From Bryum argenteum (taxonomy: Eukaryota > Streptophyta > Bryopsida > Bryales > Bryaceae), in assembly GCA_037043015.1 (NCBI GenBank), contig CM073327.1, positions 18,334,727 to 18,398,726 of the forward strand: a stretch of 64,000 bases of DNA. The letters are read 5' to 3'. Shown here one piece after another: positions 13,408 to 37,130 of this stretch. The notes below the pieces were generated by a model. That model ran no database searches and had not been told where the DNA came from. It was given only the letters and a program-made list of their open reading frames with translations. Position numbers and translations under genes: made by a program. Position 1 is the first letter of the stretch, and each line of letters starts with the position of its first letter.

Positions 13408-13429
13408 CAGGGTTGTCTTGCTAGACACA
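13408..13429 (+). repeat. Left terminal inverted repeat of Element II
   Basis: CAGGGTTGTCTTGCTAGACA plus CA. It is followed by subterminal GTCAGACAGACA repeats, which also occur inverted near the right end. Confidence 0.85.
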
Positions 13430-13589
13430 GACGGACGTCAGACAGACACGACATGTCAGACAGACATTAAGCCTCAGAATGTCTAATAGAATCTACAGAA
13501 TCTTTTTTTACCCTGGTTTACCTGCCCACGTTGCATCCTACGTGGGCGCCACGCGGCCTGTGATACTCAAGAATACGGTTCGCGATCAC

Positions 13590-13890
13590 GCCACGTAGGG
13601 ATCGGACCGGCGGTCGCGTCATCTAGACCGGGCGGTCGCCTTGGCGGACCGGGCGGTCGCGTCATCTAGACCGGGCGGTCGCCTTGGCGGACCGGCGATC
13701 GCTTTCTCTGGACCGGCGGTCGCCTTAGCGACCGACGATCGCCCAGGTTGACCGACGATCGCCCAGGTCAACCGACGATCGCCCAAGGTCGACCGATGAT
13801 CGCCCATGAGCGACCGACGATCGCCCAGGGCGACCGGCGGTCTGGCTGGACCGGCGGTCGCCTATTTTGGCCCCTGGACCGGTGGTCGCC
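13590..13890. repeat. GC-rich island (left subterminal, Element II)
   Basis: Mixed GGACCGGCGGTCGCC, ACCGGGCGGTCGCC and CGACCGACGATCGCCCAGG units. The same kind of island ends the right side at 36,690-36,920. Confidence 0.85.
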
Positions 13891-13969
13891 TAGGCTGGCC
13901 TTGCATTGGAGGCTTCCCACGAGTAGAATAAGTCAATTTTTTTATCCAACATTATCCAAAATTCTTCCG

Positions 13970-14200
13970 TTCACGTTTTTAAACGTAGATGAAGCATTAA
14001 GAATTCAAGATGAAACAAATTACAACAATCCACAAACCCCTGAAGAAAAGGCTAACATCAACCATGAGGTTTGAAACTCATGTAACAAAAAATGTGGTAA
14101 CATACATATGTGACTAGTGTAAAAAGGGAACATAATTATAAGAGTTGCAAAAATCTATTAGATTTGGAACAATATGTCAAAAAGTAGATTGTATAAATTG
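13970..14200 (+). repeat. Direct repeat A, copy 2 (Element II subterminal)
   Basis: Near-identical to 11,047-11,275. Beyond it the two elements diverge because Element I has an internal deletion. Confidence 0.85.
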
Positions 14201-14703
14201 CAAGTATAAATTGTGAATTACATGGCTAAATGAGCACTCAATGACGTGAGATGGTCATCCAAAGGAGTCTATGAATTGCAAGAAGATATACTGATATTAT
14301 AAACTAATAACTGTCCTCTCTAAATACAAGCTCCGGTGGAAGCATATGATATGGTTTCGCCATCAAGCGGTTCACCACCTCCGCACAGGTCATTCTCTCT
14401 TTTAATTCATGCCTGGTCAGTGAAAACACTTTCGTTAGGAATGAATCTCGCACCGTCGAATTCGGTAATAATTCTTCGTCGAATTCGTTATGCACACCAA
14501 TCAGCTGGATGAGCTTCCCAACCGCATACGAATCTGATGCTACTGTGGTTGGATGTCGAAGTTCTTGGACGTTCAAATTTGTATCAGAACTTTCAGGTCC
14601 ATAAGTATAGAACATCTCGGGCGCCACCCACCATCGACGTGCCATATCTTCTTCTTTTTTTGGCGTCGTCTGGTATCCGTAACGTGAAGGCTGTTGTTCT
14701 ACT

Positions 14704-14706
14704 ATA
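14704..14706. repeat. 3-bp target duplication, left (CACTA element)
   Basis: ATA next to the terminus CACTAGAGG; repeated as ATA at 18,790-18,792. Confidence 0.75.
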
Positions 14707-15168
14707 CACTAGAGGAAGGCCCCTCCTATTATAACAGCGTTTAACGTCTTATTTAACGTTAAATAACGCATTTTGATGTTAAATTCTTGTAACAGATTTG
14801 TGTCTTCTAGGTCACTCGCGAAAAATGACTTATAACAGGGTGGATTTAAGGGAGTATTGTGGATAACATCTGCGTTAAAGTGAAACTAACTAAACTAAAC
14901 GCGCTGTTAATCTTGATTTAACGCTCGGTTTTAGGATAAGAATCTGATCTGACGTGGCTGCTAGACTTTATTGTTTTTTAAAAGGGCATGCATGTTAAAT
15001 TATAAGGCGACTGCATTATACATGGCAATTTTTTGTTTGTTTTTTAAGGTAGTCCAATGTTTTTGCCTCTGATTCCACGGCGTCGTCAACCAACTGCTGC
15101 GTTGCACGGACAGAAGCAAGCAATGATCGGTGTGCTGGAGCGCCGTCTGTCAACGCTTTGATGATCCT

Positions 15169-15252
15169 TCTACATAAATAGCGGTTTCTTCTACATAAAT
15201 AGCGGTTTCTTCTACATAAATAGCGGTTTCTTCTACATAAATAGCGGTTTCT
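15169..15252 (+). repeat. 21-bp tandem repeat, about four copies
   Basis: Units TTCTACATAAATAGCGGTTTC directly abut the 50-bp array. Each equals the first 20 bp of the 50-bp unit plus C, so the two arrays are related by truncation. Confidence 0.9.
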
Positions 15253-15751
15253 TCTACATAAATAGCGGTTTTTGCTAAAAACATATTTAGAGGTAAAATT
15301 GTTCTACATAAATAGCGGTTTTCGCTAAAAACATATTTAGAGGTAAAATTGTTCTACATAAATAGCGGTTTTCGCTAAAAACATATTTAGAGGTAAAATT
15401 GTTCTACATAAATAGCGGTTTTCGCTAAAAACATATTTAGAGGTAAAATTGTTCTACATAAATAGCGGTTTTCGCTAAAAACATATTTAGAGGTAAAATT
15501 GTTCTACATAAATAGCGGTTTTTGCTAAAAACATATTTAGAGGTAAAGTCGTTTTACATAAATAGTGGTTTTCGCTAAAAACATATTTAGAGGTAAAATC
15601 GTTCTACATAAATAGCAATTTTTTCTAAAAACATATTTAGAGGTGAAATCATTTTACATAAATAGCGGTTTTTGCTAAAAACATATTTAGAGGTAAAGTC
15701 GCTCTACATAAATACCCTAAACCCTAAAAACATATTTAGAGGTAAAATCGT
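15252..15751 (+). repeat. 50-bp minisatellite, ten copies
   Basis: Units start at 15,252, 15,302 and so on to 15,702 with exactly 50-bp spacing. The form is TTCTACATAAATAGCGGTTT, then TCGCTAAAAACATATTTAGA, then GGTAAAATTG. Later copies gather substitutions but no indels. In the last copy the middle is replaced by CCCTAAACCCTAAA (15,715-15,728), two plant-type telomere units. Confidence 0.9.
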
Positions 15752-16226
15752 TCAATTCTACTTTGTGTGCTAAAACTCTATATCAAATAGTAAATAGACA
15801 AATATACATACTATACATACATATAGTAAATAAGATATGTAATATATATATTATATTATATATACAACTATAATACAATACAACTATAATATATATATAA
15901 TATATAGTAAATACATAAATATACATATTCCACTTTAAAAATAGAAAGTAAATACATAAATCTACATATTCTACTTTTAAAATAAATAGTTTAAATACAT
16001 AAAGAGTTATTTCTCTAGTTGATCTATTGACAAGATCTAGTTGATCTATTGATAAGATCTATCTTTAGAAATAGGAAAGTAAAAGACTAGAGAAAGACTT
16101 TTAGTTGGATATATAAGCTTGCGGGTGAGATGGTAGGGACTATCTTTTGTTGTAAGCTCTTTGGTTATATACAATTGTTATTTTCGATTTGAAGATTGGA
16201 GTTCTTATCTATCTATCTATCATTTA
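15752..16226. other. AT-rich spacer inside the CACTA element
   Basis: Short TATATA and ATACATA runs. No coding potential seen. Confidence 0.5.
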
Positions 16227-17308
16227 GTATGGAGTCCTATAAGTGTGAGGAATGTGACAGAATAATGAAAACTCAAGCACAGCTTGAGTTTCATTATATG
16301 TCAAAAAAACATGCTAGAAAGGTTGTTAATAGTGAGAGTATTACAGGATGTAGTGAAATAGAGAAATTTAGATCACAAGGAGTTTCAATTCCAATGAGAA
16401 TTCACCGTGTGATCCATGTCTCTAAAAAGATAGGTAGTTTGGATCCCTTAGAAGAAATTACTTCTAGCGATTTTGGTAGAAAATGAAACAAGAGTAGCAA
16501 TAATTGATTTCTCTTTTTTTCTCGGATGAACAAATTCACATATTGACTACGAAATGTAATAAACTATACAATGCGGGAGGAATAATAAAGAGGGGTAAGG
16601 AAAAGAGTGGTGGGGATATGGTTGTATTTGGATGGAGAGTTACACCAACAGATTTGGTATATATACACAAAGTAATAGAAAAGGGAGGGAAAAAGTATGC
16701 CAATTTCACTCTGATTTAAACACACTCGCAAATAGAAACAACAATGCAGAGTATACGACGTCTTTGAACTTAAAAATGTCATCTTGGATAAAAAGTTTGG
16801 AAGATTTAGTTCCTAAAGAGTTAGGAACAAAGATGGGGTCGAATTGGAAATACTCCATTTACAACAATGAGTGTGACAGAGAACTATTGGTCACCCGACC
16901 ATATAGATAATAGAGATGGGGTTACGGATTCATATTTTGGGTTCATAAAGGTAATTTTCCATTACAAGATTTCTTTTAAAACTAGTATAAAAGTATTTAA
17001 TTGCATACATGTTATACTAAAAGTTTTTAAGAAATTGTTGCATTTATTAGTGTCTAATGTTCTAATTGAATTCAATATATTTTGCAGAGATTGTAGATGA
17101 TTCTCAAATTAAACGAGCTCAATTCCGTCTGAAGGAGTACGGATTATTTTTCCGTCCAACCCCTGGGACTTTAATATGTTTTGATGCTTCAAAAATAAAC
17201 CACGGTACAAGTAAAAATACAAAGTACAAGCAATATGGAGTTGCCCTCTTGGTGAAGCCCATTGTTTTAAAAGCTGGCTTGGAAGCATTAAAAAAATTGG
17301 GATTTTAA
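16227..17308 (+). pseudogene. 2-oxoglutarate/Fe(II) oxygenase-like gene with C2H2 finger, frameshifted
   Basis: The start MESYKCEECDRIMKTQ contains a C2H2 finger of spacing C-x2-C-x12-H-x5-H. The coding signal then hops between frames: ETRVAIIDFS near 16,480-16,515; FFSDEQIHILTTKCNKLYNAG from 16,508; VCQFHSDLNTLANRNNN from 16,695; and NYWSPDHIDNRDG from 16,880, which supplies an H-x-D iron motif. An intron with GT..AG ends fits 16,951-17,089. The last exon has RPTPGTLICFDAS, a possible distal iron His in INHGTSKN, and YGVALLVKP. The order H-x-D..H in this context resembles TET/JBP-type nucleic-acid oxygenases, but the usual Arg before the last strand is not evident and the assignment is tentative. 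At least three frameshifts make it non-functional as read. Confidence 0.5.
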
Positions 17309-18700
17309 GTAATAATAGAAAAGTATTAGAATTGTCGAGAAGTATTATTAAAGAAGTAGTAGAGTTGCAGAGAAGTACCACTTAAGAAGTACTTGAGTTG
17401 CAGAAAAGTACTACTTTAAGATTGTATTATCCATGCGTTGGAGGATCATAGATTATCCATGCCTTGGATCTTTACCATTTGTGAGATGATACCATTCAAA
17501 GTTGGTAATAAACATTTATTTTTTTGTAATACTGAGTAGTTACCTAAGTTGAAAATGCACACACAAATTTTTAGAGTCTCATTCAACTCTATGAACATTT
17601 ACCTAAATTGTTTTATGGATAGAGGTCTATAAAGTGGGACACATGGAAAAGAGAGTGTAAATTCTCATAGCTCATTAATTTTCCCCTTGCATGTGGATTC
17701 TCACATTAGGTGGTTACTAGGAAAAAATACGACCACAATGATTGGGTCAAAATTCATAAACTTCCCTAATACTATTCTATTAATATTACTTAAAATCCCA
17801 GACTATATCTTCCGGTTGATTTTCAGACCATCTAATAAAGAAACCAACCTACTATGTTACAGCTAGTTCTGAAAAGAACTCGCAGGGGAAATACGGTGAT
17901 ACTGGCCTCCACCTGCACAGATTCTCTCTACCACGGAACCTAATCTTCCGCATGCCGTCGCCCCGACTTCCGGGTGGAGCCCTCGCTCGCTCGCTCCACC
18001 AACCGGGACGCCATGATCTTGCTATGGAAGTGAGGCCGAAGCCCTGCCTGCTCCACGTCCACCACGTTCCACCAGACGCGAAGTCCCGCTGCCGCTCCAA
18101 CCGCAGCCGAATAGGTGAACTAATCTTTCCATGCACTAGTGTGCATAGAAATAAATGACATTTTGGATGAAAGGAAGAATTTTTGAAGAGCCATAACTTC
18201 TTCATTTCGACTGCTTTTTTTTACGAAATTACTTGGGTTGGGTCCCAAATGAAGTCTTGTTTGTATGGTAAAAATTGCAGGCCCATACTATGAAGTATGA
18301 ATTAATGGAAAGCATTTTTGTGAAGGCAGCTTCTATTTTTTGTTATCCAAAAATGGGGCATGTTTTACCATTGCAAGCTAATTATGTGATATCATAAAGA
18401 GTTTTTCATGAGTTTTCTTTACATAAGTATGATCTTTAGATGCATCCTTACAACTTTCTAGTTGCAAGTTTTTTGATCCAAATAACTTTGCTATTGGATT
18501 TATATTGATGTTCTTACAATGAAAAAAGTGAAAAAAATGGATGGTTTTTGAGGTGCTAGATCTCCTTCATCCACCGTTAGATTTAGTTAACTTGCTTTAA
18601 CAGAGAAGAATGACAAGAAACGCAACAATATCAAAACGACAAGAGACGTTAAAAGTGCTCCGTTCTAACAGGGCTTGTTAAAAGTTTTAAGACATGTAAG
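17309..18700. other. CACTA element interior without recognised gene
   Basis: Includes a short GC-rich stretch at 17,900-18,110. No supported coding region. Confidence 0.4.
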
Positions 18701-18789
18701 ATAAAAGAGAATGAGAAAAAACACAAGAACATGGTTTTAACGGCTCGGACATGTTTTAACGTATTTATATACCTGGATTTCTTCTAGTG

Positions 18790-18792: not shown

Positions 18793-20129
18793 CGAGATGC
18801 CATCCCCCAGTCACACACTCCAATACAAATCTTGGTTCCTCCGAAAGTTGGGAAATGCAATAGTATGTTCGAGGGGGATAGGTTGTTGTGAAGAACTCAT
18901 GTCTTATGCACGAGATTCATGATGTACACTAAACCCCAAGCTAACTTCATCCTGTGCTGACGGAAAAGGCTAATTCTGAAAGCCTCCTCTTGAGTGAGAC
19001 TCGGAACTTCCTTCACTTTCGACCAGTGAAGATGTTTGTCCCCGACCTTCTCATCCAACTTCAACATCTCGTGTAGTGATCCCCCATTCCACCAATATGA
19101 GTAAGCTTCGAATGTCCTTGTATGCAACGCCCAAAACTTGATAATTCCTGGATGATTCAAAGGACATACAAGAGCTTCTACAGCAGTCTCTATCCTCCTC
19201 TTCTGAAGATTCATATTCTTGGAAAGCTTTGCTGCAAACTCGACATTTTCTGGAACGTGGTCTACTCCAAGTATCTTCACCTTCCGCACCAGTCCATGGC
19301 CTCCCTCCATATTGTCGCCTGATAGAGCTTCTATCGTAGCGTCTTGAGGAATCCACACCACCCCCGACCCTGTGTCTCGTTCAAATGTGGCGCGCAAAGC
19401 GGTTTTTTCCCATGACTTCCCTCGGGTTTTATTCTTGCTAAGCTTTTGGATTGTGTGTTGCCACCAATCCATCTTGCGTTTAAACTGGTCCTCCTCTTGT
19501 GTTAGACGCCTCGTTCCAAATCGCTTCTTCCACAACTCCTTTACATTGAAGATGCATTGTTCAACTGTATTATCCATCCACAACTCGTACTGCGAATGAT
19601 AATCCACATCTTGGTATTTATCCGTTTCCTCCATGGCCTTCAAAATTACGGCCGCCAATTTGTTCTTCAGTCTCTCTTTGCCCGTGCTAACATTCCTGAG
19701 GTAGTTGTGCTCTAGGAATTGAGCCTCCGTTTCCTCAGACCAATCCATGCATGCTTTTTCCGCAAACTTAGTATAATCTGTTGTTGGGAATCCGGGTCTT
19801 TCTTCTTTTGTGTGTCTCCTCTTCCTCTTATGGCCTCCACTTCCACTAGGTTGTTCCATACCAAGGTCTGGTGCAAATGTTTCGGGGGCATCCAGATCCC
19901 ATGCTCGTTGTCCCTTCCCGTGCTTTTTGGATTTACTCATCGCTGAATTTCTTGAAAAAACCGGCAAAAAATCTCCCCCCTGCTATCAATGTGCACCAAA
20001 CCCCAAAAACTCCTCAGACGACCCGGCAGTGCGCATCATTAAGACGAGCAAGGACACAGGGCGGAGGAGAGTTCGGTAGCGGTTCGGGGAAAAGTAATAT
20101 CAAACCCGCGCGTTGGGGTTTATATATCC

Positions 20130-20515
20130 TTGGAGACCGGCGGTCGCCCTACAGTCGCCCCAGGTCCCGCTGTCGCGACAGCTGCACCGGCAGTCGCCCT
20201 ACGTCCCGCAGTCGCGACAGCTGCACCGGCGGTCGCCCTGCATCCCGCTGTCGCCAACAGCTGCACCGGCGGTCGCCCTACGTCCCACTGTCGCGAACAG
20301 CTGCACCGGCGGTCGCCCTACGTCCCGCTGTCGCGAACAGCTGCATCGGCGGTCGCCCTGCCTCCCGCTATCGCGATTAGCTGCACCGGCGGTCGCCCTA
20401 CGTCCTGCGTCGCGCCAGCTGTACCTGCGGTCGCGCCCTCACTGGACCGGCGGTCGCCACGCAACGTCATACCTCTATCTGGACCGCCGGTCGCCTTGAA
20501 TTTCTGGTCGCCCCG
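20130..20515. repeat. GC-rich island between divergent kinase-like and WCHI-RING genes
   Basis: About seven units of 39-40 bp combine GCACCGGCGGTCGCCCTACG with TCCCGCTGTCGCGACAGCT. The second half contains the palindrome GCTGTCGCGACAGC. It lies about 190 bp from the kinase-like start and 140 bp from the WCHI-RING start, so it probably holds both promoters. ORFs across it are repeat artefacts. Confidence 0.85.
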
Positions 20516-20652: not shown

Positions 20653-22987
20653 ATGGCTACTCTCGGGCAACTTAGGAAGGAAGAGAACGACAAGAAGAAG
20701 AAGAGGAAGGGCGCTCCACAACGGAAAAGATTACACGTGCTTCAAAATCCAAATAAGCTTGCCTTCAGAGGTTGGGAAGATGAACCAGATATGTGGACGA
20801 TGGCCACTTGCGAATCGTTCATTGAATGGTGTCACATTGACAAGAAATTCCCTCTGTCTCGTCACCATTTTCATCGGCGCACCAACAAGGCAAATCTTAA
20901 GTTTTGCGAATGCCCAAACTTCAAGCAACGATGCATTGAGGTTTACCAAGTCCTGTATGGCATGCCATGTGTGGAGCGCAACGAGGTTCCATTGTTTCTT
21001 GCTCGTGGAGTATACGCCGAGGTTGCTCTTGGTAAACGAGTGGATTGGACAAGCTCACAAAGAGGGGAAGCATGTAACACGACCTTCAACGAGTGACATT
21101 CCGACGGGCATTCTAAGATTCCCTGACGCTCCTAATGGTGGCATGGCGGTGACGAGGTCTATTACCAAGGCTATGGAAGAGGCTGCCTATCATAGTGCTA
21201 CATCGGAAGAGGACGATGACTCGGATGGTTCGCGGCCTCGTAAGGCGGTGCGTCAAGTACAACAACCTCTTCCTCCCGCCAGCGTTGTGATTGATGCGGA
21301 TCATTGTCGTAATTTACCTGGCCACGTTCCTGAAATAGGTGGCTCTCGCCCTCCAATAGCAAGTAATCATCCACCCGTAGTAGAGCCCCATGGTACTTGC
21401 ATCTTACCATTGGAAGAACTTGACACATCTTCCGATCTCAAAGCTCTTCTGAAGAGTAAAGACGACGTCATAGCAAGATTGCAAGCGGATCTCGAAAAAA
21501 CACGAGCAATGTATGAGGAGAAGGTGAAAGAAGGGGACCAGCTTTCCGTGGAATATGCACGCATGCGCGAGAAGATGCAAGAACTATCTCACGCACGTAA
21601 CATTCGTGGAGATGTAGAGAAATCTGACATGGCGGATGTTGATAGAGTTGTCTTCAACCTTACAGAGGACTTGGCATTTGGAGAAATGTCACCGCAACGC
21701 CCTACATTGCGTCGTCCTGTGAAAGCTCAGCCATGTGTTGTTAATATGTCGGGCCTCGAACGAGAAGAAGATGTACGATGTGATTCTCAAGATTCTTTAT
21801 CTTTACCGCTGTTCCCCCCTATTCGTAATCCCCCTTTCATGTCGTCTGATGGATACAACTCCTTACTAAAGGAAAAGCAACAACTGCAAGCTCGTTTGGA
21901 GCAGTTGTCTGCCACTTACTACCATTGGAAGGTGGCATGTATACTTTCGGTGGATAGAGGGAGACAAGTTGCAGCGGAGCTGGAGAAGATTGATAAGAAT
22001 TTTACTAGTGGAGCTGGTCGGCGAACGTTCGGTATGACCTCGTGGCCGAGTGTGGATACATTGTTTGATAATCTTCCTATGATGGACATCAAGATGCAAG
22101 AGGACACTTCTACAGAGGTTGTAGATTGGAGCAAGGCCGGGTGGAATTTCAAACACCACATGTCGGCACATGTTGATGTAGAATCCAGGACATTATTGTG
22201 GCCCAACCCTCCGCAGTTTGTATTGGATCACTCTACGTGTCCCATATGCCTAAATCCATTTGGACCTGGGGGTGGATGGGCTTTAAGCTCTTGTGTCCAT
22301 ATGTATCATCCGCAGTGTCTTTTAGTTCATTGTTTGACTCAAAGTCGTTGTGCTATATGCAAAGCGCCTTTTCACGAGCGGTTCTACGAGATGTTCAATC
22401 TAAGAACTTATATGCCGCCTTCTTGGGAACACAATGCTGAGACTACCGACGAGGTTCGATTCTGGGATAAAGACCTTATTTGGAGTTGGCGTAGAGGTGA
22501 ACATGATCTCGAGAAGAGTACTCCTAGCTCCCAATTGAATTGGGAGACTGACCCAAACGAGATTCTAAGAGTTGCTCCAATACTTGCCGGACACGGTCCA
22601 CAACATGAGGGTAATTGGATGTTCTTCTTCCAATGCCTTGGAGGCTATTTTGATGTGAGCTCTAATACATTCAAGTGGGGGCCCCATCCAATGGGCCATC
22701 GATGGAATCAGTATGGGAAGAGAGTAACCGACGGTGAAGGTCGTGCCTCCATGGAAGATTTGGAAGAGTGTCAATATACTGAGTCTACTTGGGGGCCACG
22801 ATACCAGTCTCAAGCTCTAGACTATTTACTGGATGTACATAGTCCCCTCACAAGAAGGACTTTGCAGGACTTGAAAGACTCTAGAGTATTAGATCTGATC
22901 TTAAATGCAGATGGTCCATTCAATCGAACTCGTGCAAAGCGTAAACTTCTTGTTGGAGAATGCTCCAACCCTCAGCCTAGTGAATGA
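20653..22987 (+). pseudogene. WCHI domain - coiled coil - RING finger protein (one apparent frameshift)
   Basis: Starts MATLGQLRKEENDKKKKR, a basic N-terminus shared by the family. The WCHI domain follows (residues ~35-135): FRGWEDEPDMW, EWCHIDKKFPLSRHHFHR, NFKQRCIEVYQVLYG, NEVPLFLARGVYAE, RVDWTSS. The frame breaks near 21,064 in a GGGG run and continues in the +1 frame (RPSTSDIPTGILRFP) to 22,987; a single-base deletion or assembly error would explain it. Next come a Glu/Asp-rich linker, a coiled coil (SKDDVIARLQADLEKTR) and a RING finger near residue 530: CPIC, a SSCVHMYH core with C, then CAIC. A conserved ~190-residue C-terminal region of unknown fold ends the protein. RING domains usually act as ubiquitin E3 ligases; activity here is inferred only from the spacing. 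It is convergent with the WCHI gene at 24,743. Confidence 0.75.
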
Positions 22988-23421: not shown

Positions 23422-24743
23422 TTAAGAATCTTCAACTTTTTCCTTGCCCTTTGAAAAAATTGATCGTTGTGGTTCCAAATCAGCGTTGATTGCGTTTATG
23501 TTGATGTCATCTTTTGCGTTACTTTTACGATGAGCCCACTCTGCCCATGAGTCCTCGAATCGTGCATTCTCCTCAGCTACACGTAGTTGCTTTGCGAGTT
23601 TTACATTCTGGTCTTCACTCCATTTCACCAGCCTCTTTAATTTGTCAACTCTCTCTGGAGTCTTGCCATACTTACCCGCTAATGCCAAATCCCGAATGCG
23701 TAGCATCTCTTTATCTACCTCTAGAGCAATAGATTCTTCAATATCCGTCAACCGTTCCCTCCTCCCAGCTAGGACCCCTTCCAGGTAAGTATGTTTTGCT
23801 GACCAGAACTCTACGTAGTCTTCTATGGAAAGGTTGTTTGAATTTTTCTTCTCGAAAAACTTCTCCTTAGCCTCTTTTCGTAGCACAAGCATGGTCTCCA
23901 TGTCAGCTATGCAGTCTAGAGCTTTTTCCAAAACCTCCCGACATTCTTCTTGTACATCGTATGGTGCAGAAAGGGCTCTTTCTTTGAGGGCTTCCAATTC
24001 CTTTCTATTCTGCAGTACTAAATCCAATTCCATGCATTTTCCTATACCGAAATTGTGCAAATGATCAAAGTATCCATGGCTTTGGATAATCTTCCACCCA
24101 CTTTTCGGAGTGGATTTACCCGAAAGGATATTCCTTGATCCGGTCATTGGAGGACCAGTTGGTTCACGAGCTCGTATTCGTGTGTGTTTCATCCTCCGAG
24201 GATTCGGAAGAAGACCTGCTTTGTGTAAAATTCGCGTCGGCCTTAGGACTCACAGTGATGCAGTTCAATTCCATCTCCTTCAATAGTCTTTGATGTCTCT
24301 CCAACCTCTATTGGTTCGGTCTTCTCTTGTATAGGCAAACGTGGATGCGTCCACCAATGCACGTTCTTCCCGAGAATCATTTCCGCATATGCCATTTGTG
24401 CCAAAAAGTAGGGAACCTCATATTTAAAAATATGGTTGTTACCGTATATCATATGCCAAGCATATATGCATCTCGCTTTGAATTCGAAATGATGGCACTC
24501 TCGGAGGTTAGCTTCATTCTTCTGCCGATGAATATTGTGCCAATGTAGAGGAAAGAGCTTGTTGATGTGGCACCACTCCACATATTTCTCACATATGGCA
24601 AAAGACCACGGCCCCCTCTCTTCCTCCCATCCTCTAAACGCTACTATCTTTGGATTCTTCAAGATGTCTCTGCGCTTCTTCGCAATCCGACCTCGGTCAT
24701 GGCGCACCATGGATGTGCCCGCTACAACGGGTAGTGCCTCCAT
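23422..24743 (-). pseudogene. WCHI coiled-coil gene of Element II (frameshifted linker)
   Basis: Start ATG at 24743 (MEALPVVAGTSMVRHDRGR). The WCHI domain has FRGWEEERGPW, YVEWCHINKLFPLHWHNIHR, FEFKARCIYAWHMIYG, YEVPYFLAQMAYAEMILGK. The frame stops at 24,243 in the linker and the downstream coiled-coil part resumes in another frame (24,192-23,422: NRKELEALKERALSA, NNLSIEDYVEFWSAK, RVDKLKRLVKWSED). The Element I copy has an intact linker, so the Element II copy has lost frame by small indels near 24,190-24,250. A GC-rich island and the conserved GTCGATAC..CAATGCGC motif lie upstream. Confidence 0.75.
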
Positions 24744-24824: not shown

Positions 24825-24889
24825 AAGGAGGGACTCGCAAAGTGTGAAAATGGACTGTCGGTTGCGTTCTTAAGCACAGTGATAAGGCG

Positions 24890-26909: not shown

Positions 26910-28544
26910 ATGACTACAATTGCGGAACGTAAAATAGTACTTGGGGAGCGGCGCAAGAAGAGAGGAAAAACACAGAAGAGGAATCACCGTATTCTCCAAG
27001 ATGCCACTCAACGCGCTTTTCCGGGGTGGGAGACCGAAGAGGGTGTGTGGAGTCAGACAACAGTGAAGAATTACATCGCCTGGTGCCACATCAGCAAGTT
27101 GTTTCCACACTTTCGACATGAGACGCACTTGAAATTAAATGCTGCAAATCTGCACTATTGTAAGCATGACGAATTTGTGCAACGATGTATTGAAGTGTGG
27201 AGGTTCCTTTATAAAGGTAAGAATGTCACCAAGAACGAGGTTTCGTATCATATCGCTCAAATGGTGTATGCAGAGGTAATATTGGAGAAAGTGGTGGATT
27301 GGAGCTCAATGAAAAAATCGCCTCAATTCTTCCTTCCAACCAAGCAAGATATTCCAAGAGCCCCATTGACAGAAAACCCACGAGAAGGACTTACGGCAGC
27401 AAGGCATCGGAAAGATGGGGATGCTGATGATGTGTATGTTTGGGAAAAACCTAATTCTGATGAAGAAGAGGTTAAGGAGAGGGAGCATCATACTCCTCTT
27501 GTAGAAGGTTCTATTGGTGGCGTTGAACACTTTCATGTGGGTGAAACAAGCGTGCAAGATTTGGATGTGATTGATGCACCTGTGAAGCACATCGAGGACC
27601 TACGAACAGAAGGAGAAGCGGATGTCATTGAATACATGGAGGTTGAAGCAATGTTTGGTGCTTGTACTTTGGGTCCATCCGAAGTTATAGTTCGGCCCGC
27701 TATGAGCGCCTCTCCTCAAACAAATGTTAGCGTAGAGGATGGGACTCTAGAATATCCAATGGAAACGATTGAACAGCCAGAAAGAGAAGGAAATGAAGAA
27801 GTAGAGCTGGAGAAGGAAGTTCAAGTAGTCTTCAAAGCGAAACGCCCGAATGAAAACGATGATTCGTGGATGAAGTTGTTGAACAAGGCTTATGAGGATT
27901 ATGAATATTTGTTTCATGCTTTGTCATACGAACGGGCAAAGTGTGTTGAACTCCAACATGACATAGAGGTAATCAAGGATGCAAAAAAGAAGATCCAAGA
28001 GGAGGCGACGAATGTTCTCCCAGCTCTGGATGCATCGGATCAGGTCGATTATGAGAAAGAGCTCATAAAGCATATGAAACATTTCGAGGATGTGCGAAGG
28101 AGATACAAGCACGTCGACGAATGGTTTGTGGTCAATGATTGGGGTCGCGAGAAGGATTTTATGGTTGAAGGAGCCAAGGACCAAGGTCATTTTGAGAAGG
28201 AGCTAAAGGAACTCATTTCGGCATGCGATGCCTTGAGAGCTGAGATCGAAAGGGTAAACCTAGCATCAATAAGATTGAAGGGGAACAAGGAAAAGTTAGT
28301 CCTCAATAGAATAGATGGAACCGTGGATACTGCAGAAGAGGGTCAAAGTTCACAACGCAATGAAACAACTGAGGAGTTGGTCAAAAAGCTACTTGTGCTC
28401 GCAGAAGAGGAGAGGTTCTTAAATGCAAGGATCGAAGATCTATGTATTACAAATAAGACAAAGGAGAAATGTCGAGTTTGGTACCATCTAAAAAAATCTA
28501 AAGTACAATGGAAGAAGATTAGAGTAAGCGGAATCAAATTTTAG
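26910..28544 (+). CDS. WCHI domain - coiled-coil protein (544 aa, intact)
   Basis: The only long WCHI gene in the window without a stop, frameshift or insertion. The basic N-terminus MTTIAERKIVLGERRKKRGK is followed by the WCHI domain at about residues 35-135: FPGWETEEGVW, YIAWCHISKLFPHFRHETH, NAANLHYCKHDEFVQRCIEVW, NEVSYHIAQMVYAEVIL, VDWSSM. A proline turn (PRAPLTENPREGLT) and an acidic linker lead to a long Glu/Lys-rich coiled coil at about 310-525 (HDIEVIKDAKKKIQEE, LISACDALRAEIERV, LLVLAEEERFLNARIEDL). No catalytic motif or signal peptide is seen. The domain is not one I can name. The pattern of conserved Trp, Cys, His and Arg is compatible with a small metal- or nucleic-acid-binding fold, which is inference only. 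Cargo of Element II. Confidence 0.85.
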   Translation: MTTIAERKIVLGERRKKRGKTQKRNHRILQDATQRAFPGWETEEGVWSQTTVKNYIAWCHISKLFPHFRHETHLKLNAANLHYCKHDEFVQRCIEVWRFLYKGKNVTKNEVSYHIAQMVYAEVILEKVVDWSSMKKSPQFFLPTKQDIPRAPLTENPREGLTAARHRKDGDADDVYVWEKPNSDEEEVKEREHHTPLVEGSIGGVEHFHVGETSVQDLDVIDAPVKHIEDLRTEGEADVIEYMEVEAMFGACTLGPSEVIVRPAMSASPQTNVSVEDGTLEYPMETIEQPEREGNEEVELEKEVQVVFKAKRPNENDDSWMKLLNKAYEDYEYLFHALSYERAKCVELQHDIEVIKDAKKKIQEEATNVLPALDASDQVDYEKELIKHMKHFEDVRRRYKHVDEWFVVNDWGREKDFMVEGAKDQGHFEKELKELISACDALRAEIERVNLASIRLKGNKEKLVLNRIDGTVDTAEEGQSSQRNETTEELVKKLLVLAEEERFLNARIEDLCITNKTKEKCRVWYHLKKSKVQWKKIRVSGIKF

Positions 28545-29435: not shown

Positions 29436-31124
29436 GATTTGGAGGTTTTGAATGAAGTTAACACCAAGTATCCTATACCATGCCAAGGTTGAATCAAATT
29501 AACACCAAGTATTTCCTTCCATGTAAATCCAAGTTCCATGTGGCTTCTTTCATGATTTAATATATTTAATACAGTTAGAGAAAATAATAAAACCACCTCC
29601 TCCCCCCTTTAGTATAACTTCCTCTATTACTTAGCATCCTACAAAGTCAAAGTAAATCATAACATGTAGATACGTTTCTCTTACGGGAAATTTTGTTCTT
29701 CCATAATTTTTATAAGGTCTTTTTTAGTCAACACAAGTTTTAAAATCGTTATCCCTTTCCATATATCTATTTTCCGTATATCATTCAATATTCTACTCAT
29801 TCAAATGACTTACAAGTAAATGATGACCTATAGATGACATATCCCCACAATTTTCTAAATAACACCATCATTTCCATAGGGTCATCATTAGGTAGTCTAA
29901 GGGTTTAAATTGTCCTCTTACCCCCTTTATCTATTTTTTCTTATTTTTTGAAGTTTTGGTGTTTCTAAGTGCTTGCAACCAAAATCCACCCTATAGATCC
30001 TTTACTCCAACGATATTTTTTTATAGCTCCATCATGTTCATAAGGTAGTTATTACATAGTCCAATTCTTTTTAAAATATTTTTTCTCTCCATTTAACTAT
30101 TTTTTATCTATTATTTAAAGCTCTACTTACTTCGAAAATTTTATATTAATTTGGGAAAAATAGTACAGGTTGTCCTATAATATTTTTGATGGTTCCATCA
30201 TTTTTACATGATCCATATTACCTACACTAAATAGGTAGATTAGTGTTAGATACACTAATTTACATAAATAGGCTATAAGTTTTTACTATTAGTCAATATT
30301 TGTACCCTCTACAAAGGTGAAGATGGGGATCCTTACATAGTATTGGAATCAATACTCTTGGTAAAATTTTTATCCCAAAAGTAAAAACTTGTAGCATTTT
30401 CAAATCTTATAAAATTCTAACACTAATGTACTTATTTAGTGTAGTCCAAATGTTCAAATTACATTCCCCACTTTGTTTTCGTATGCATGTGCGCACACCG
30501 CCTACTTTCAAATGACTATTTAATTTTTGGAAATTCGGGAAAAATACTTTCATTCCTCCTGTGCCCCTAAGATTTATACCATATTTTTTACACAATATGA
30601 ATCACCTATGAAAGTTATCAACACCCCTTCCACTCCGTTTTTACTTATATATTTACATATTCCCCCGTGCTTCAGACCCCGCAATTCAAATATCCCCATA
30701 TAAACTCAACCACTTAGTTCGCATTCTCCTATGGTTTTATGAATACTTCCATTACATTTATGAGGCCCTTATTACCTAATTCAAGTGTTCGTATCACCTC
30801 CTGTATCCTTTCATTCTCTTTTCCCTTATCATTCGAAGTTGTGGTGGGTGCACCTAAATTATAACATATGGATGCGATTTCCCTATGGTTTTTTTTATGA
30901 TTCGATCATTTTCATAGGGTCATTATTAGGAAGTCCAAGTATTAAAATCACATTATTGCCCCATATATATATATATATATATATATATGTTTTTTTTTGT
31001 TTTTTTTTTGTTTTTAGTTTTGATGGTTCCAAATACTTGCCACCAAAAGTCATTATATACATTCGTTACTACTTTGATAATTCTGACAAACACGTTGGGA
31101 GGAAGGTTAGTCCTTACCCATGAG
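29436..31124. other. AT-rich spacer inside Element II
   Basis: No gene. Contains an (AT)12 microsatellite at 30,964-30,988 followed by poly-T. Confidence 0.5.
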
Positions 31125-31310
31125 CTGGACCGGCGGTCGCCCAGTGATCTACGTTCGCCCACCAGCTGGATCGGCGGTCGCCCCAGCGACCGACGTTCGC
31201 CCATCGGGTGGATCGGCGGTCGCCCTAGCGACCGACGCTCGCCCTTCGGTTGGATCGGCGGTCGCCCTAGAACCAGGGTTACATATACGTGCGCGGACAC
31301 CGGCAGTCGC
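31125..31310. repeat. GC-rich island upstream of the gene at 31,553
   Basis: Units GGACCGGCGGTCGCCC, GCGACCGACGTTCGCCCATC and GGATCGGCGGTCGCCC. Confidence 0.85.
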
Positions 31311-31552: not shown

Positions 31553-32257
31553 ATGACGCCTAGCCAGGAGCGGAAGATAGCGAGAGACAAGGACCGCAAG
31601 AGGAAAGGAAAGAAGCAAAGGAGATTTCACAAGATTCTCATAGATCCCACGCAACATGCTTTTCCGGGGTGGGCGCAAGTAGAGGAACCGTGGACCCTTA
31701 AGACTTGCAAGTGGTACATTGCTTGGTGCCACATCGGCCATTTGTTTCCACACTATCGTCACGAGTTTCATCGCCGCCTGAATTGCGCAAATTTGCACTA
31801 TTGCCATCACGATGAATTTGTGCAACGATGCATTGAAGTGTGGAAGTTCCTCTACGCCGGTGTGCATGTGGTGAGCAACGAGGTTTCGTACAACATAGCA
31901 CAAATGGTGTACGCGGAGATAATTTTGCAGAGGGAGGTGGATTGGAGGACGTTAAAAAAATCCCCTCAAACAATTAAGCCAACAGAATCCCATATTCCGC
32001 GAGCTCCTTATCCAGCGGCCAACCCACGAGAAGGGCTTACAACGCCTAGGGGTTACAAAGGAGGAATCCCTGATGAGGACATAGTTTGGTCAGATTCGGA
32101 AGAAGAAGGGACCGAAAGGCGAGAAGTGGATGAAGGGGAGCCGAACCAAACGATTGAGGAAGGTCAGGCACATTTTGATGAAGGGGGGCCAAGCCAAGTT
32201 TGTACAGAAGGGGGGCCAAGCCAACTTTACAATGAAGGGGGCCCAAGCGAAGAATGA
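31553..32257 (+). CDS. Short WCHI-domain protein (234 aa, intact)
   Basis: Starts MTPSQERKIARDKDRKRKGK; an in-frame non-ATG extension exists upstream but the family N-terminus begins here. The WCHI domain spans about residues 35-135: FPGWAQVEEPW, YIAWCHIGHLFPHYRHEFH, NCANLHYCHHDEFVQRCIEVW, NEVSYNIAQMVYAEIIL, VDWRTL. It ends after a proline segment (PRAPYPAANPREGLT) and an acidic tail with tandem EGGPSQ repeats. It has no coiled coil, so it is either a naturally short paralogue or a C-terminally truncated one. It is most similar to the gene at 26,910. Cargo of Element II, directly before the transposase. Confidence 0.8.
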   Translation: MTPSQERKIARDKDRKRKGKKQRRFHKILIDPTQHAFPGWAQVEEPWTLKTCKWYIAWCHIGHLFPHYRHEFHRRLNCANLHYCHHDEFVQRCIEVWKFLYAGVHVVSNEVSYNIAQMVYAEIILQREVDWRTLKKSPQTIKPTESHIPRAPYPAANPREGLTTPRGYKGGIPDEDIVWSDSEEEGTERREVDEGEPNQTIEEGQAHFDEGGPSQVCTEGGPSQLYNEGGPSEE

Positions 32258-32800
32258 CTGGTAGTTAGTTAATCACGTTTTTTTAGCAATTGTAGAAAAG
32301 TAGTATACTCAATACCAAACACTAAGTGCAATTGCCATTTTGTATGCAAAAACGTTGAATGTGAATATGAAGTTTTTGATTTTCTTCAATTTAAATATTC
32401 TTGGTGAATGAAATCTCACTATTGCATGTGGTATAAGCATAAGGGAAAAACCTTCAATGTCCGAGGTACCGTCATTGATACATGGCAATTTTTATCATTC
32501 TTAATTATTTAGGAAACGTGGATTGAGCAATATTCATCCCTTTATTTTTTGGATTTGGAGCAAGAGAAGTTAAAACTCTAGTTTCTAATATGAGTCCTTA
32601 TTGTTCTCTCTCTTGCCTTCGCATGTTCTCTTTATTTTTATTTATTTATTTTCTTTTAAAAAGAAAAGCATTATTGCGAATCAAACATTTTTGAGCCACA
32701 TGGTCTCCAGGATTCTAGTTAATAATAGCTGTACTGCGTGGACCATGGATATTGACTTGGAGAGTAAAGTGCTCTTCGTCGGAAAAATCTGTCATCACTG
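32258..32800. other. Spacer before transposase gene
   Basis: AT-rich; no coding signal found. Confidence 0.5.
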
Positions 32801-32804
32801 TGGC

Positions 32805-32985
32805 GACCGGCGGTCCAACTGGGTCAGGGCTAGGGCGACCGGCGGTCCAGCTAGCGCGATGAAGTCAAGGCCAGGGCGACCGCCAGTTCACATGGCGCGA
32901 CAGCGTTGTTGTTAGGGCGACCGCCGATCTGGCTGTGGCGACCGCCGATCTGGCTGTGGCGACCGCCGATCTGGCTGTGGAGTAT
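32805..32985. repeat. GC-rich island upstream of the hAT transposase
   Basis: Units GCGACCGGCGGTCCA and three tandem GGCGACCGCCGATCTGGCTGT copies. Ends about 175 bp before the transposase ATG. Confidence 0.85.
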
Positions 32986-33160: not shown

Positions 33161-36100
33161 ATGGAGCATTCTTCCCAATCCAACGGGGTACCAGATAATA
33201 GAAGAAACACTCGCAAATGGGACGAGTGGCTACGAGTATCCACGGAACGGAACGACAAGCCAAATACTCGCGTGTGCTTATTCTGTGGAAAAAGCACAGT
33301 CTTTGTAAGGCAACGAGCATTAGCTCATTTCGGATATCCTCACAATTCCCCATTACCCCGGTGTACGAGGTTGCCCCGTGGAGTTCTTGAGCTATTCCGT
33401 GACTGCGGAGGGATAGTTCCAAAGAACAACATTTCTTATGCGGATGTTGTTCCTGACTCACGAGTGGATGCCGGCATACCATATGCGGCAAGGAAAACTA
33501 TAGAGAACATAGATACCCCTCGCATCAACTCTGTACAAGTGCCATCCCCTAACCTAAGGTCTAATCAGGTGCCATCCTCTAACAAGGGGAGTCATGGCAG
33601 CAATGGACAAAGGATCTCTACACTCTCTAGTGGACGGCGACATGGGCAAAGGAGTATGGAGGATAGTTTTGATCTTGCCACTAGGCAAAATTTGGATGCA
33701 AAGTGGGCTTCATTTTTCTATGAGGCAAACATTGCATTCAATGTCGTACGACATCCAACATTCATAAGTGCCGTTCAAGAGACAGCAAAGGCCGGTATTG
33801 GTGGATATCAACCACCCTCGTATCATGCTATTAGAACTACGATGCTCGATGCGAAGAAGGCAGCTGTGCAAAGGTCAGTAGAGGATCGAACAAAACTTTC
33901 TATCGAGAAGTACGGAGGAACAATATGCTCAGATGGGTGGTCGGATGTCACAAGTAGACCACTCATTAACATGATGCTCGTTTGCCCAGTGGGAGAGGTG
34001 TTTTTGGGATCAGTGGATACTACAGGGAAGAAAAAGGACATCGCTTATGTGGCAAATGAAATGGCGAAGTACATAGAGGAGGTTGGACCACAAAACATCG
34101 TGCAGATATGCACCGACAATGCAAGCTCCATGTTAGGTGCTGTAAAGAAGTTGCAGATAGACTATCCTCACTTGTATGGACAAGGTTGTGCGGCACATAT
34201 TCTAGACCTCCTTCTGGAAGATTGGGGGAAAGAGGCGTGGGTTAAGCATTTGGTGGAGCAAGCCAAGAGAGTGTACACATTTATTAAGGGGTCCCACGTC
34301 CCCCTTGCTCTATTCAGGAAGTACTCACCGAAGCTGCAGCTCAAGGTACCACCTCAGACTCGATTTGCAACAAACTACTTGATGATAGAGCGGTTGTTAA
34401 AGCTACAACAACCTCTGAACAACATGGTGATTGATGCGGAGTGGCATGTGTTTGTCCAAACATTGTTCAACAGGCAAAACAGTCACCAGTTACAGACAAA
34501 GGCAAGGAATGTGCGGAATAGCATTAGGAGCGATGAGTTCTGGGAGAATTGTACGAAGTTTGTGAAAGTAGTTGAACCAGTACTCCTAGCTCTTCGGGAG
34601 TTTGACGGGGAAGTACCAGCCATGCCTAGGGCGTATGTGATCATGTCGGACCTTAAGGAACACGTGTTCTCTTTGCGTGAACCTCCATTCGAACTATCCC
34701 CCGACATTGCTACAAAATACGAGGATGCATTTCAAAAACGATGGGAGATGATGCTCACAGACCTCCACTATGCAGCAGCTTTGTTGAACCCTTATTTGAC
34801 AAATATTGGAGCAATTCAAAACAATGGAGAAGCGAAAAGAGCTTTAAACCGGGTCATAAGGAAGCTTAGCGCCCCAATGGGAGTGGTCTATGAGGAAGTG
34901 GTGCGGGAACTCATACAATATGAGGAGAGGACGGGTCCATTTAACACCAATTCAGAGGCCCCTGATCCAGCTCACTGTGACTTGTTACCACATCAATGGT
35001 GGCATCAAGTCGGGGGGAATGCCTTGCCAAAAATTGCGAAGAGGATTTTGGCATTGACATGTTCAGCTTCATCATGTGAGAGGAATTGGAGCATGGACTC
35101 TTTCGTGCACAACAAAGTGAGGAATCGGTTGTCAACTTCCAAAGCAGAGGACCTTGTGTACATCTATGCGAACGCCAAACTCGAGCGCCAGAAACGTACC
35201 AAATCACCGAGAACGTGGTACGAAAATTACTTAGAAGAAGAGGACTCTGACGAAGAAGACTATGTACCCGACAATGAATGGGATGATGGTGTATTCATGG
35301 ATAACCCGGAGGCGGATGACGAGAATTATGTCAATGACGGTAGCCAACACGACGACCTAGAGAATTGGAACGACAACGAAGGAAACATGACTATTCATGT
35401 CAAGGACCCGTTTGAGTTCGATGACGACCAGGATGTTCCACAACTGCCTCGCCAGTTTGCGGTATTTGCCAGCAACACAGAAGAAGAAGGAGTGACAAAT
35501 TTACAACTCCAAGAGAGTACCAACCTAGCGAAACAAGACTTGGTAAACCAGATGGATGAAGAGAACATTGGTCCACTTAAAGGCAGCCCACACTCTAACA
35601 ACGACGATAAACTTGAGAGTGTGAAGGGCATGGTTACCACGACAGGAGTTCAAATGGACCAAATTAAAGTGGAACCTGACGATGTATCCAATTCAGGTTG
35701 CATGGAAGTGGGGTCACCTAGAGTTTCAACCATTCGATCAAGGAATTCAACTCTTAACGGAGATGACTCCGATGTACCTCTACAACAATTGTTCCCAAAG
35801 GTTACCCAACCTAAAGGGGCCCATACAACTCGTATGGTATTGCCGAAGATGGAGGTCAAGATAGAACCAACAAGTCCAACATGCAACCGGGCATTGGCAG
35901 TGGCACGAGACGTTGGGCCATCTACACAACCTCGCAATCGTATTACACGAGGCCAGAAGCGTTTGAGGAAGGCACACAATCGACGATGTCGAAAAGGAGC
36001 ACGCGTACATGAAGAAGTCCATGCTGGGATTGTTTCATCCAATAATCGGAATACACGTACAATGCGCCATCTACCACTGAACGCAAACGGGATCACTAAT

Positions 36101-36319
36101 GCTTCACGGCCCTTGAAGCGCCTCGTTACAGTTAACAAGAAAACAACTACGGACACGGAATTGCGCAATTTGGCGAGTGAGGTTGAGTGTGAAGTACGCA
36201 ATGAGACAGAGGATGAAGATGAGGATGGCGACCAAAGCACTGATGACTCTCTAGGTGAAACCGATCCAAACGCAGATGAAGTATCAAGCGACGATACGTA
36301 TACATTGAGGGATACCTAA
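33161..36319 (+). CDS. hAT superfamily transposase (1052 aa, intact)
   Basis: An unbroken ORF starting MEHSSQSNGVPDNRR. A BED-like zinc finger lies near residues 20-70 (RKWDEWLRV, CLFCGK, ALAHFGY). A DUF659-type catalytic core follows: the first Asp in ICSDGWSDVTSRP (about 256) and the second in QICTDNASSMLGA (about 317). The hAT C-terminal dimerisation region at about 610-680 holds the Glu in SASSCERNWS and VRNRLSTSKAEDLVYIYAN. All three presumed catalytic acids are present. A long acidic tail (DSDEEDYVPDNEWDD) and a basic C-terminal region extend it beyond the usual 650-750 residues. It would excise and insert an element with 8-bp duplications, as seen around Element II, and is the likely mobiliser of both elements. 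A GC-rich island precedes it. Confidence 0.9.
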   Translation: MEHSSQSNGVPDNRRNTRKWDEWLRVSTERNDKPNTRVCLFCGKSTVFVRQRALAHFGYPHNSPLPRCTRLPRGVLELFRDCGGIVPKNNISYADVVPDSRVDAGIPYAARKTIENIDTPRINSVQVPSPNLRSNQVPSSNKGSHGSNGQRISTLSSGRRHGQRSMEDSFDLATRQNLDAKWASFFYEANIAFNVVRHPTFISAVQETAKAGIGGYQPPSYHAIRTTMLDAKKAAVQRSVEDRTKLSIEKYGGTICSDGWSDVTSRPLINMMLVCPVGEVFLGSVDTTGKKKDIAYVANEMAKYIEEVGPQNIVQICTDNASSMLGAVKKLQIDYPHLYGQGCAAHILDLLLEDWGKEAWVKHLVEQAKRVYTFIKGSHVPLALFRKYSPKLQLKVPPQTRFATNYLMIERLLKLQQPLNNMVIDAEWHVFVQTLFNRQNSHQLQTKARNVRNSIRSDEFWENCTKFVKVVEPVLLALREFDGEVPAMPRAYVIMSDLKEHVFSLREPPFELSPDIATKYEDAFQKRWEMMLTDLHYAAALLNPYLTNIGAIQNNGEAKRALNRVIRKLSAPMGVVYEEVVRELIQYEERTGPFNTNSEAPDPAHCDLLPHQWWHQVGGNALPKIAKRILALTCSASSCERNWSMDSFVHNKVRNRLSTSKAEDLVYIYANAKLERQKRTKSPRTWYENYLEEEDSDEEDYVPDNEWDDGVFMDNPEADDENYVNDGSQHDDLENWNDNEGNMTIHVKDPFEFDDDQDVPQLPRQFAVFASNTEEEGVTNLQLQESTNLAKQDLVNQMDEENIGPLKGSPHSNNDDKLESVKGMVTTTGVQMDQIKVEPDDVSNSGCMEVGSPRVSTIRSRNSTLNGDDSDVPLQQLFPKVTQPKGAHTTRMVLPKMEVKIEPTSPTCNRALAVARDVGPSTQPRNRITRGQKRLRKAHNRRCRKGARVHEEVHAGIVSSNNRNTRTMRHLPLNANGITNASRPLKRLVTVNKKTTTDTELRNLASEVECEVRNETEDEDEDGDQSTDDSLGETDPNADEVSSDDTYTLRDT

Positions 36320-36689
36320 AGACGAATTATTAGAATTTTGTTATTTTGGATTGGAAGCACGAAGTTCATTGTTAGTACTCGGTACAATACTACAATGTAC
36401 TCCAAGTAGGGCAACTATTAGCTTACAATACTTTGGTATCCTAGTATGTTTTGGGAGTATAATATATATAGTTTGGTATATGTAATAGTTACATCATATA
36501 TATGAATACTATGATTATAGACATGAGCAAATTTGTACTATGAAATGCACCATTGACCTTGTTTCCGATAAAAAGGTATTCATAAAAATGCTTTGAAGCT
36601 CATTTTGTACCAATATGAATTTATTTTTCTTGTTTCATATTCAACCATAGTGCTGGTCACCACACACATCGCCACATGGGCGCTACCCC
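36320..36689. other. 3' flank of the transposase gene
   Basis: AT-rich; no coding signal. Confidence 0.5.
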
Positions 36690-36920
36690 CGCGACGCGAC
36701 CGCGATAGCCATAAGCGACCGACGACGCCCGGGCGATCGTCGTCGGTCGCCGAAATCGACCCGTGATCGCCTACTAGCGGTTGCCGGCGACCGCGGTCTC
36801 CATCTTTGGACCGCCGGCCGCCCTCTCATGGCGGCCCGAGCGTCGGCGATCGCAAAGAGGCGGCGTTCGCCCGATGCGACCGTCGATTGCCTAGCGAGGT
36901 CGCCCACCCGCGGCGCGCCC
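36690..36920. repeat. GC-rich island (right subterminal, Element II)
   Basis: Degenerate GCGACCG, GGTCGCC and GGACCGCCGGCC units. Mirrors the left subterminal island at 13,590-13,890. Confidence 0.75.
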
Positions 36921-37108
36921 ATCGTGACGTGTATTTTGATTTTCCACGTCATTATCAACCCTACGCCACATAGGAAAATAGCTTTTTACCTCAAGGTAAA
37001 TATCAGCAAGTTTTTTACTATGTAATTTTTGGTACGGTCGACATTTTCGTCGACTCGACGTCTAACAGACATGTCCAATACGACAAATCAGACAGACATT
37101 CCGAAAAT

Positions 37109-37130
37109 TGTGTCTAATAAGACAACCCTG
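37109..37130 (-). repeat. Right terminal inverted repeat of Element II
   Basis: Reading inward on the minus strand: CAGGGTTGTCTTATTAGACA plus CA. Subterminal GTCTGTCTGA and GACATGTCTG motifs lie at 37,045-37,100. Confidence 0.85.

Follow-up and report, generated by a model that had tools for sequence, protein, structure and literature searches.

Evidence for a family of giant multigene hAT transposons in the moss Bryum argenteum

The 64,000-nucleotide stretch of the Bryum argenteum assembly GCA_037043015.1 considered here (contig CM073327.1, positions 18,334,727 to 18,398,726, forward strand; hereafter the window) contains an inserted element at 13,408-37,130 (+), 23,723 bp in length, which encodes a hAT transposase and five further genes, and which very probably belongs, as a complete copy, to a family of giant multigene hAT DNA transposons with a unit of ~18-20 kb, a recurring gene set and a constant gene order. 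The element is bounded by a left terminal inverted repeat at 13,408-13,427 (+; CAGGGTTGTCTTGCTAGACA, beginning at 13,408) and a right one at 37,111-37,130 (-; the inverse of CAGGGTTGTCTTATTAGACA, ending at 37,130). Directly outside both ends stands the perfect 8-bp target-site duplication CTCCACAT (13,400-13,407 on the left and 37,131-37,138 on the right), as had already been noticed in the first-pass annotation of this sequence. That annotation had also described inverted termini of 20-22 bp; paired ends are indeed present, but the exact run in this copy is 12 bp (18 of the first 20 bp match), with runs of up to 22 bp in other copies. Past the inverted match the two ends diverge into a left type and a right type, both of which recur in other copies. 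Short inverted ends with a CAGGG-like start correspond to the hAT consensus.

The transposase gene, at 33,161-36,319 (+), consists of an open frame of 1,052 amino acids (aa) with Pfam matches to DUF659 (PF04937, 8e-40) and Dimer_Tnp_hAT (PF05699, 2e-6). The protein carries D258, D319 and E640 as well as a CxxH motif, in agreement with the initial description of a 1,052-aa hAT transposase with three presumed catalytic acids; D, D and E correspond to the catalytic residues of hAT transposases. In an alignment of 19 proteins that includes the one in the window, D279, D340, C364, H367, E661 and W664 (P0001 numbering) are invariant in all 19, and a profile of 19 transposases gives a weak match in the PDB to the C-terminal part of the Hermes transposase (E 5e-4). 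An N-terminal BED zinc finger is common in hAT transposases, but not universal; here Pfam returned no BED match in the transposase, near whose N-terminus a CxxC...H pattern can nevertheless be seen. The element has been placed in the hAT superfamily because the defining hAT features that were looked for were found, and it is a hAT of unusual size and complexity.

From the left end, the genes follow one another as kinase-like (-), RING-like, coiled-coil gene 1 (-), coiled-coil gene 2, a short gene and the transposase gene. The protein-kinase-like gene is severed by a nested insert into a 3' part (14,304-14,706, -) and a 5' part (18,897-19,940, -); its uninterrupted counterpart in another copy, E1, matches Pfam Pkinase at 4e-11, and the kinase open reading frame (ORF) gives weak matches to many protein kinases in the PDB. 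It is followed by a gene at 20,653-22,987 (+) that combines coiled coils with a RING-like finger (E 8e-6), where the N-terminal part lies in another frame, the alignment placing a frameshift near 21,056. Coiled-coil gene 1 (23,422-24,743, -) is likewise frameshifted in this copy, while coiled-coil gene 2 (26,910-28,544, +) is an open frame of 544 aa, and the short gene occupies 31,553-32,257 (+). Four of the six genes (RING, coiled-coil 1, coiled-coil 2 and the short gene) share an N-terminal domain of ~130 aa, which we have named WCHI after its motif WCHI.KLFP. In scans of the ORFs the WCHI domain corresponded to no Pfam or NCBIfam family, with no NCBIfam match reaching its cut-off, and a PDB profile search with WCHI/RING returned only a coiled coil at E 0.09. 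The same domain, joined to coiled coils or to a RING-like finger, also occurs in the database proteins P0055-P0066.

The insert that severs the kinase gene is a CACTA-like element at 14,707-18,789 (4,083 bp, 5'-CACTAGA...TCTAGTG-3'), flanked by a 3-bp duplication, ATA, and missing at the matching place in five other big copies (E1, E4, E5, E6 and E7). A view of the extra ~4 kb as part of the unit was rejected, since the other copies show it to be a nested CACTA-like insertion. The 23.7-kb unit initially proposed is thus one insertion block, but the unit itself measures ~19.6 kb and the remaining 4.08 kb belong to the nested insert.

The element in turn sits within a copy of its own family that is older and decayed. 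The left part of this outer copy (9,110-13,407, +) starts with a left terminus at 9,110 and matches element positions 1-567, 563-791 and 9206-11176, and its continuation past the insertion (37,131-38,969, +) matches element positions 11169-11641 and 11707-13153, at 87-95% identity and ~72% in the terminal region; no right end was detected in a search that allowed up to 4 mismatches and extended 20 kb past the window. The flanks of the window element thus correspond to element 9206-11176 and 11169-11641, which overlap by exactly the 8 bp of the duplication, and it can therefore be concluded that the insertion of the window element hit coiled-coil gene 1 in an older copy that is partly deleted. 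The prediction that deletion of the block rejoins an interrupted gene is upheld in element coordinates by this 8-bp overlap. Because the element lies inside a copy of the same family, the interrupted gene and its supposed uninterrupted paralogue (at 24,576) are both the family's own coiled-coil gene 1, the latter being that gene in the inserted copy. Just outside the outer copy, an ORF at 7,703-8,680 (+) has 28% identity over 112 aa to a WCHI-domain protein and is perhaps the remnant of a more divergent family.

Across the genome searched (258.8 Mb in 25 contigs, of which contig C1, 44.1 Mb, makes up 17%), the 12-bp terminus occurs 751 times (385 forward and 366 reverse), compared with 18 occurrences (9 and 9) of a control with the same letters read backwards. 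Pairing was analysed for 100 listed termini, all on contig C1 up to 21.4 Mb, where neighbouring termini less than 40 kb apart were convergent (+/-) in 29 cases, divergent (-/+) in 6 and on the same strand in 4. Both ends were read for 19 pairs, namely the window pair and 18 of the 34 adjacent convergent pairs on C1. In these 19 elements CAGGGTTGTCTT forms both ends with an exact run of 12-22 bp, the elements having been picked by the same 12-mer. The 8-bp duplication agrees at 8/8 positions in 14 pairs and at 7/8 in the other 5, whereas left and right octamers taken from different elements agreed at seven or more positions in 0 of 342 combinations. Five of the 19 are large (17.8, 18.9, 21.3, 23.7 and 30.0 kb, the fourth being the window element), and all five have a perfect duplication. 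The 140-bp flanks of the 19 elements have no mutual similarity at E 1e-5, so that these are many separate insertions. A search for inverted terminus pairs at similar spacing elsewhere in the genome had been proposed as a check on the original reading, which it passed with the pairs 17.8-30 kb apart.

Smaller relatives with the same ends are also present, namely E2, E3 and twelve others of 0.2-7.3 kb, where E2 and E3 have retained only the ends and fragments of the interior. E2 and E3 (L014 and L015; 5.7 and 7.3 kb) were also observed to contain several copies of a ~400-bp stretch that also forms part of the CACTA-like insert nested in the window element. hAT elements have the target preference nTnnnnAn; T at position 2 together with A at position 7 occurs in 9 of the 19 left duplications (counted by eye), against ~1 expected at even composition, which is a preference and not a rule. 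Termini are denser in the first 21.4 Mb of contig C1 (4.7 per Mb) than in the rest of the genome (2.7 per Mb). The scored matches to element genes described below are likewise concentrated on C1 as a whole (200 of 270). This contig may represent a sex chromosome or some other chromosome that recombines poorly; alternatively, the choice of candidates in the search may favour it.

When the window element is compared by blastn with E1, E4, E5, E6 and E7, the copies are collinear, with main blocks of ~87-96% identity over nearly the whole unit, and the very ends are less alike (77-88%). Genome searches with four proteins (transposase, RING, coiled-coil 2 and kinase) gave 270 usable loci, from 43 of 52 rows for the transposase, 57 of 71 for RING, 79 of 81 for the coiled-coil protein and 91 of 97 for the kinase; the dropped rows were second fragments of loci already counted, apart from one kinase locus whose two rows (C3:6511296 and C3:6512247) were omitted inadvertently. 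Because only the best candidates were scored (transposase 43 of 1319, RING 57 of 1027, coiled-coil 79 of 1427, kinase 92 of 1006), the copy numbers are minimum values, and well-preserved copies are over-represented in the sample. The 270 loci fall into 154 clusters, of which 77 are multigene (44 with two genes, 27 with three and 6 with four), and among these scored matches the order kinase, RING, coiled-coil 2, transposase is kept in 77 of 77 multigene clusters. Strand agreement inside the clusters follows by construction, because they were built on one element strand, which affects neither the order nor a count made independently of clustering, where adjacent matches to different genes less than 16 kb apart agree in element strand in 116 cases versus 1. 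Typical spacings are 0.6 kb between kinase and RING, 6.2 kb between RING and coiled-coil 2 and 6.4 kb between coiled-coil 2 and transposase, with outliers. A RING match lies within 40 kb of 15 of the 43 transposase loci, and in 13 of these cases side and strand are as expected and the distance is 8-20 kb, compared with a random mean of 0.2 (contig sizes that were not known being set to 20 Mb). On C1 below 21.4 Mb, an exact left terminus stands 1.6-2.8 kb from 16 of 27 kinase genes, and an exact right terminus 4.05-4.15 kb from 6 of 13 transposase starts.

A further feature common to the copies is the motif GACCGNCGNTC, which was chosen after arrays of it had been seen. Counted on either strand it occurs 50 times in the window: 40 of these copies lie in the element, the outer copy contains the other 10, and the remaining 34 kb, of similar GC content, has 0; shuffles of the element that preserve base composition only contain a mean of 0.08. 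In the window element the motif forms arrays in the left subterminal region (13,600-13,890), between the divergent kinase and RING genes (20,139-20,500), and upstream of coiled-coil gene 1 (24,889-25,220), coiled-coil gene 2 (26,537-26,701), the short WCHI gene (31,118-31,272) and the transposase gene (32,791-32,976). In all five big copies considered, each of the six genes has at least one motif in the 700 bp upstream of it (30 of 30; kinase and RING, being divergent, share theirs), and random sets of six 700-bp windows all contained the motif in 0.02-0.15% of trials. All 6 of 6 big copies have an end array within 600 bp of the left end; at the right end, 5 of 6 have one within 700 bp, the window copy being the exception, and further motif copies stand behind coiled-coil 2 in 4 of 5 big copies. 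The motif GACCGNCGNTC may be a binding site common to promoters and ends.

Comparison among copies demonstrates purifying selection on the transposase and RING genes, with RING as constrained as the transposase. The pooled ratio of nonsynonymous to synonymous differences (pN/pS) against the window copy is 0.39 for the transposase, 0.36 for RING and 0.49 for coiled-coil 2, with stop codons and gapped codons of each copy left out of account; one of the matches pooled for coiled-coil 2 is partial, to C8 (72%). Because these comparisons share one partner, a third-position test was rerun on up to four disjoint pairs, between which non-coding stretches differ by ~3%. An excess of third-position differences was obtained for the transposase (p 6e-6) and for RING (p 2e-4, without data from the C4-C8 pair), and a weak one for coiled-coil 2 (p 0.09). 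It follows from this constraint that RING, and perhaps coiled-coil 2, behave as working parts of the element, while the test is undecided for the others.

Relatives of the additional genes have also been found outside this genome. Five database relatives of RING have 44-96% identity, and coiled-coil 2 has seven matches, one of them full-length (56% over 99%) and six covering 29-46% of the length, which is essentially the WCHI domain. As relatives of RING and coiled-coil 2 were found in other assemblies, such genes exist elsewhere. Among 47 matches, Ceratodon purpureus supplies the closest moss protein with an organism name, a fragment (62% over 109 aa and 39% over 182 aa), and the other organism names are those of flowering plants and one metagenome-assembled genome labelled 'Bacilli bacterium'. 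No relative in viral contigs was confirmed by the transposase or RING profile, and no relatives were found in plasmids. Prokaryote genomes yielded one relative of the transposase (42% identity), on a 3.6-kb contig filed as Halorubrum (L048), which is probably contamination.

In hAT transposition generally, the transposase excises the element and reinserts it with an 8-bp staggered cut. By analogy with other hATs, the transposase encoded just inside the right end would recognise the asymmetric ends of the element and insert the whole block, which in turn would create the 8-bp duplication, so that the family is expected to move by cut-and-paste through its own enzyme. At the level of sequence, the separate insertions with their duplications would be the evidence for movement, and the smaller copies (0.2-7 kb) with the same ends may have been moved in trans. 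The RING and WCHI proteins may help the element by stabilising the transposase, by modifying a host factor or by regulating the element via the motif arrays; our preferred guess is that the RING, WCHI and kinase proteins regulate or protect the machinery of transposition and that the motif arrays are where they act. We put forward only tentatively, as somewhat doubtful, the further proposal of an integrated six-gene mobile system rather than a hAT with hitch-hiking cargo, where a motif regulon upstream of every gene and in the end regions would be read by WCHI proteins that build a transposition or regulatory complex, and RING and kinase would act on host silencing or repair factors. If this were true, a transposon would encode its own regulation and its own manipulation of the host, as a virus does, without any viral gene.

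Several observations weigh against the main reading, a giant multigene hAT family. The frames of kinase, RING and coiled-coil 1 are broken in the window copy; the scores of the RING-like finger lie under the Pfam cut-offs (25.8 versus 27 and 24.8 versus 27.3). Copy E7 contains extra DNA and has kept only a third of the transposase gene, loci C4 and C8 have no left end in the 25-28 kb fetched, and the collinearity of C8 is confined to roughly its last 6 kb. Half of the clusters (77 of 154) consist of a single gene, and on C1 below 21.4 Mb an exact terminus is missing from the expected position at 11 of the 27 kinase loci and 7 of the 13 transposase loci. The 18 convergent C1 pairs that were read are a subset of the 34. 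Mixed results were also obtained for selection on the remaining genes, where coiled-coil 1 has a pooled pN/pS of 0.85-1.05, the short gene one of 0.76, and the kinase gene values of 0.70 in its 5' part and 0.475 in its 3' part, and the disjoint pairs gave no significant third-position excess for kinase (p 0.80), coiled-coil 1 (p 0.72) or the short gene (p 0.20), so that these three may be passengers. This lack of significant constraint, together with the broken frames in many copies and the frequency of small derivatives free of genes, is what favours the main rival, in which a host gene cluster was captured once between hAT ends and then amplified, the extra genes being passive cargo of no use to the element. 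Such an origin is nonetheless rather unlikely, as RING is constrained like the transposase, one domain is common to four of the six genes, one motif stands upstream of all six genes in five copies, and relatives of RING at 44-74% identity and the full-length relative of coiled-coil 2 occur in other sequence sources.

The other alternatives are much less probable. A virus-like element of the Maverick/Polinton or Teratorn type, integrating by means of a hAT transposase, would account for a size of 18-30 kb and for several genes with a common upstream motif, but it is very unlikely given that Pfam scans of the larger ORFs gave no polymerase, capsid, protease or packaging family, the only families above cut-off being kinase, DUF659 and hAT domains, with RING just below. 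The abundance of the 12-bp terminus and the shortness of many copies mean that chance pairings occur, and a few adjacent convergent pairs lie 50-350 kb apart, so that an assembly join or coincidence could in principle have left two unrelated small hAT ends 23.7 kb apart with ordinary host genes between them. This is still less likely in view of the perfect duplication in all five large pairs read, window included, against none in the mismatched control, and of the same block lying collinear between the same ends elsewhere with its gene order kept throughout. Segmental duplication of a block in which only the ends are transposon-derived would fit the concentration of scored matches on C1, and is the least credible of all, as the flanks of the 19 elements are dissimilar and each element has its own 8-bp duplication. 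A giant multigene hAT family remains the reading that we prefer. The first-pass annotation had proposed one mobile unit with five cargo genes; that it is one unit is confirmed by the collinear copies, but the genes form a recurring set and not variable cargo.

Among known transposons, hAT elements usually measure 2-5 kb. The window family resembles the members of the hAT superfamily (Ac, Hermes and the DUF659-type plant hATs) in its transposase domains, its D/D/E residues, its short inverted ends of the CAGGG type, its 8-bp duplication and its small derivatives, and differs from the usual hATs in being at least four times larger and in having five further genes. The Starships of Pezizomycotina carry a tyrosine recombinase 'captain' at the 5' end and variable cargo. 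They are similar in that a giant element carries genes along with its own enzyme, whereas here the enzyme is a hAT transposase and the gene set recurs; no tyrosine recombinase was present in the ORFs scanned. Nor did these ORFs contain the protein-primed DNA polymerase B or the retroviral-type integrase of Maverick/Polinton elements, although very divergent genes could escape such scans.

A cargo-bearing hAT has been described in wheat-pathogenic fungi, where ToxhAT, of 14.3 kb with eight genes, likewise combines a hAT transposase with several genes between terminal inverted repeats, and where its authors report that no duplication was found (PMC6737239). What sets the family in B. argenteum apart is that it has many copies with 8-bp duplications, that its gene order is constant and that one gene other than the transposase is under selection. 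Teratorn, a piggyBac element fused with a herpesvirus (41-182 kb, ~90 other genes), is alike in that a cut-and-paste transposase moves a much larger multigene block, as outlined in a 2019 review on giant transposons (PMC6431247), but no piggyBac transposase, herpesvirus family or other viral family was found in the ORFs scanned here. The closest in architecture is an enlarged En/Spm (CACTA) element of the red alga Chondrus crispus, with 16-20 kb and 4-5 ORFs in the account given by the same review, which is an ordinary cut-and-paste family grown to a similar size with several genes, and which belongs to a different superfamily (PMC6431247). The main text of that review uses the term hAT 0 times (PMC6431247). 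No description of a giant plant hAT was among the papers listed by capped searches of an open-access library, a scope outside which most subscription journals and bioRxiv fall. The earlier remark that no description was known fits plants as far as these listings go; in fungi, a cargo-bearing hAT, ToxhAT, was already on record (PMC6737239).

It is customary to regard hATs as small transposons with a single gene. A family of 18-30 kb with a recurring gene set and many perfect duplications suggests that a plain cut-and-paste transposase can move such blocks repeatedly, and that a eukaryotic transposon can evolve its own helper genes. The family would provide a plant counterpart to the giant elements of fungi, fish and algae, as well as a testable new protein domain, WCHI. 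It also serves as a warning for annotation, as many predicted kinase, RING and coiled-coil genes in such genomes may be transposon genes. In the surroundings of the element, an ORF of 872 aa with DUF7869 (4,231-6,849, +) and a retrotransposon gag ORF (320-2,458, -) lie to the left, and on the right (50,697-54,191, +) are ORFs that encode an RRM domain and a double-stranded-RNA-binding domain, perhaps representing a host gene.

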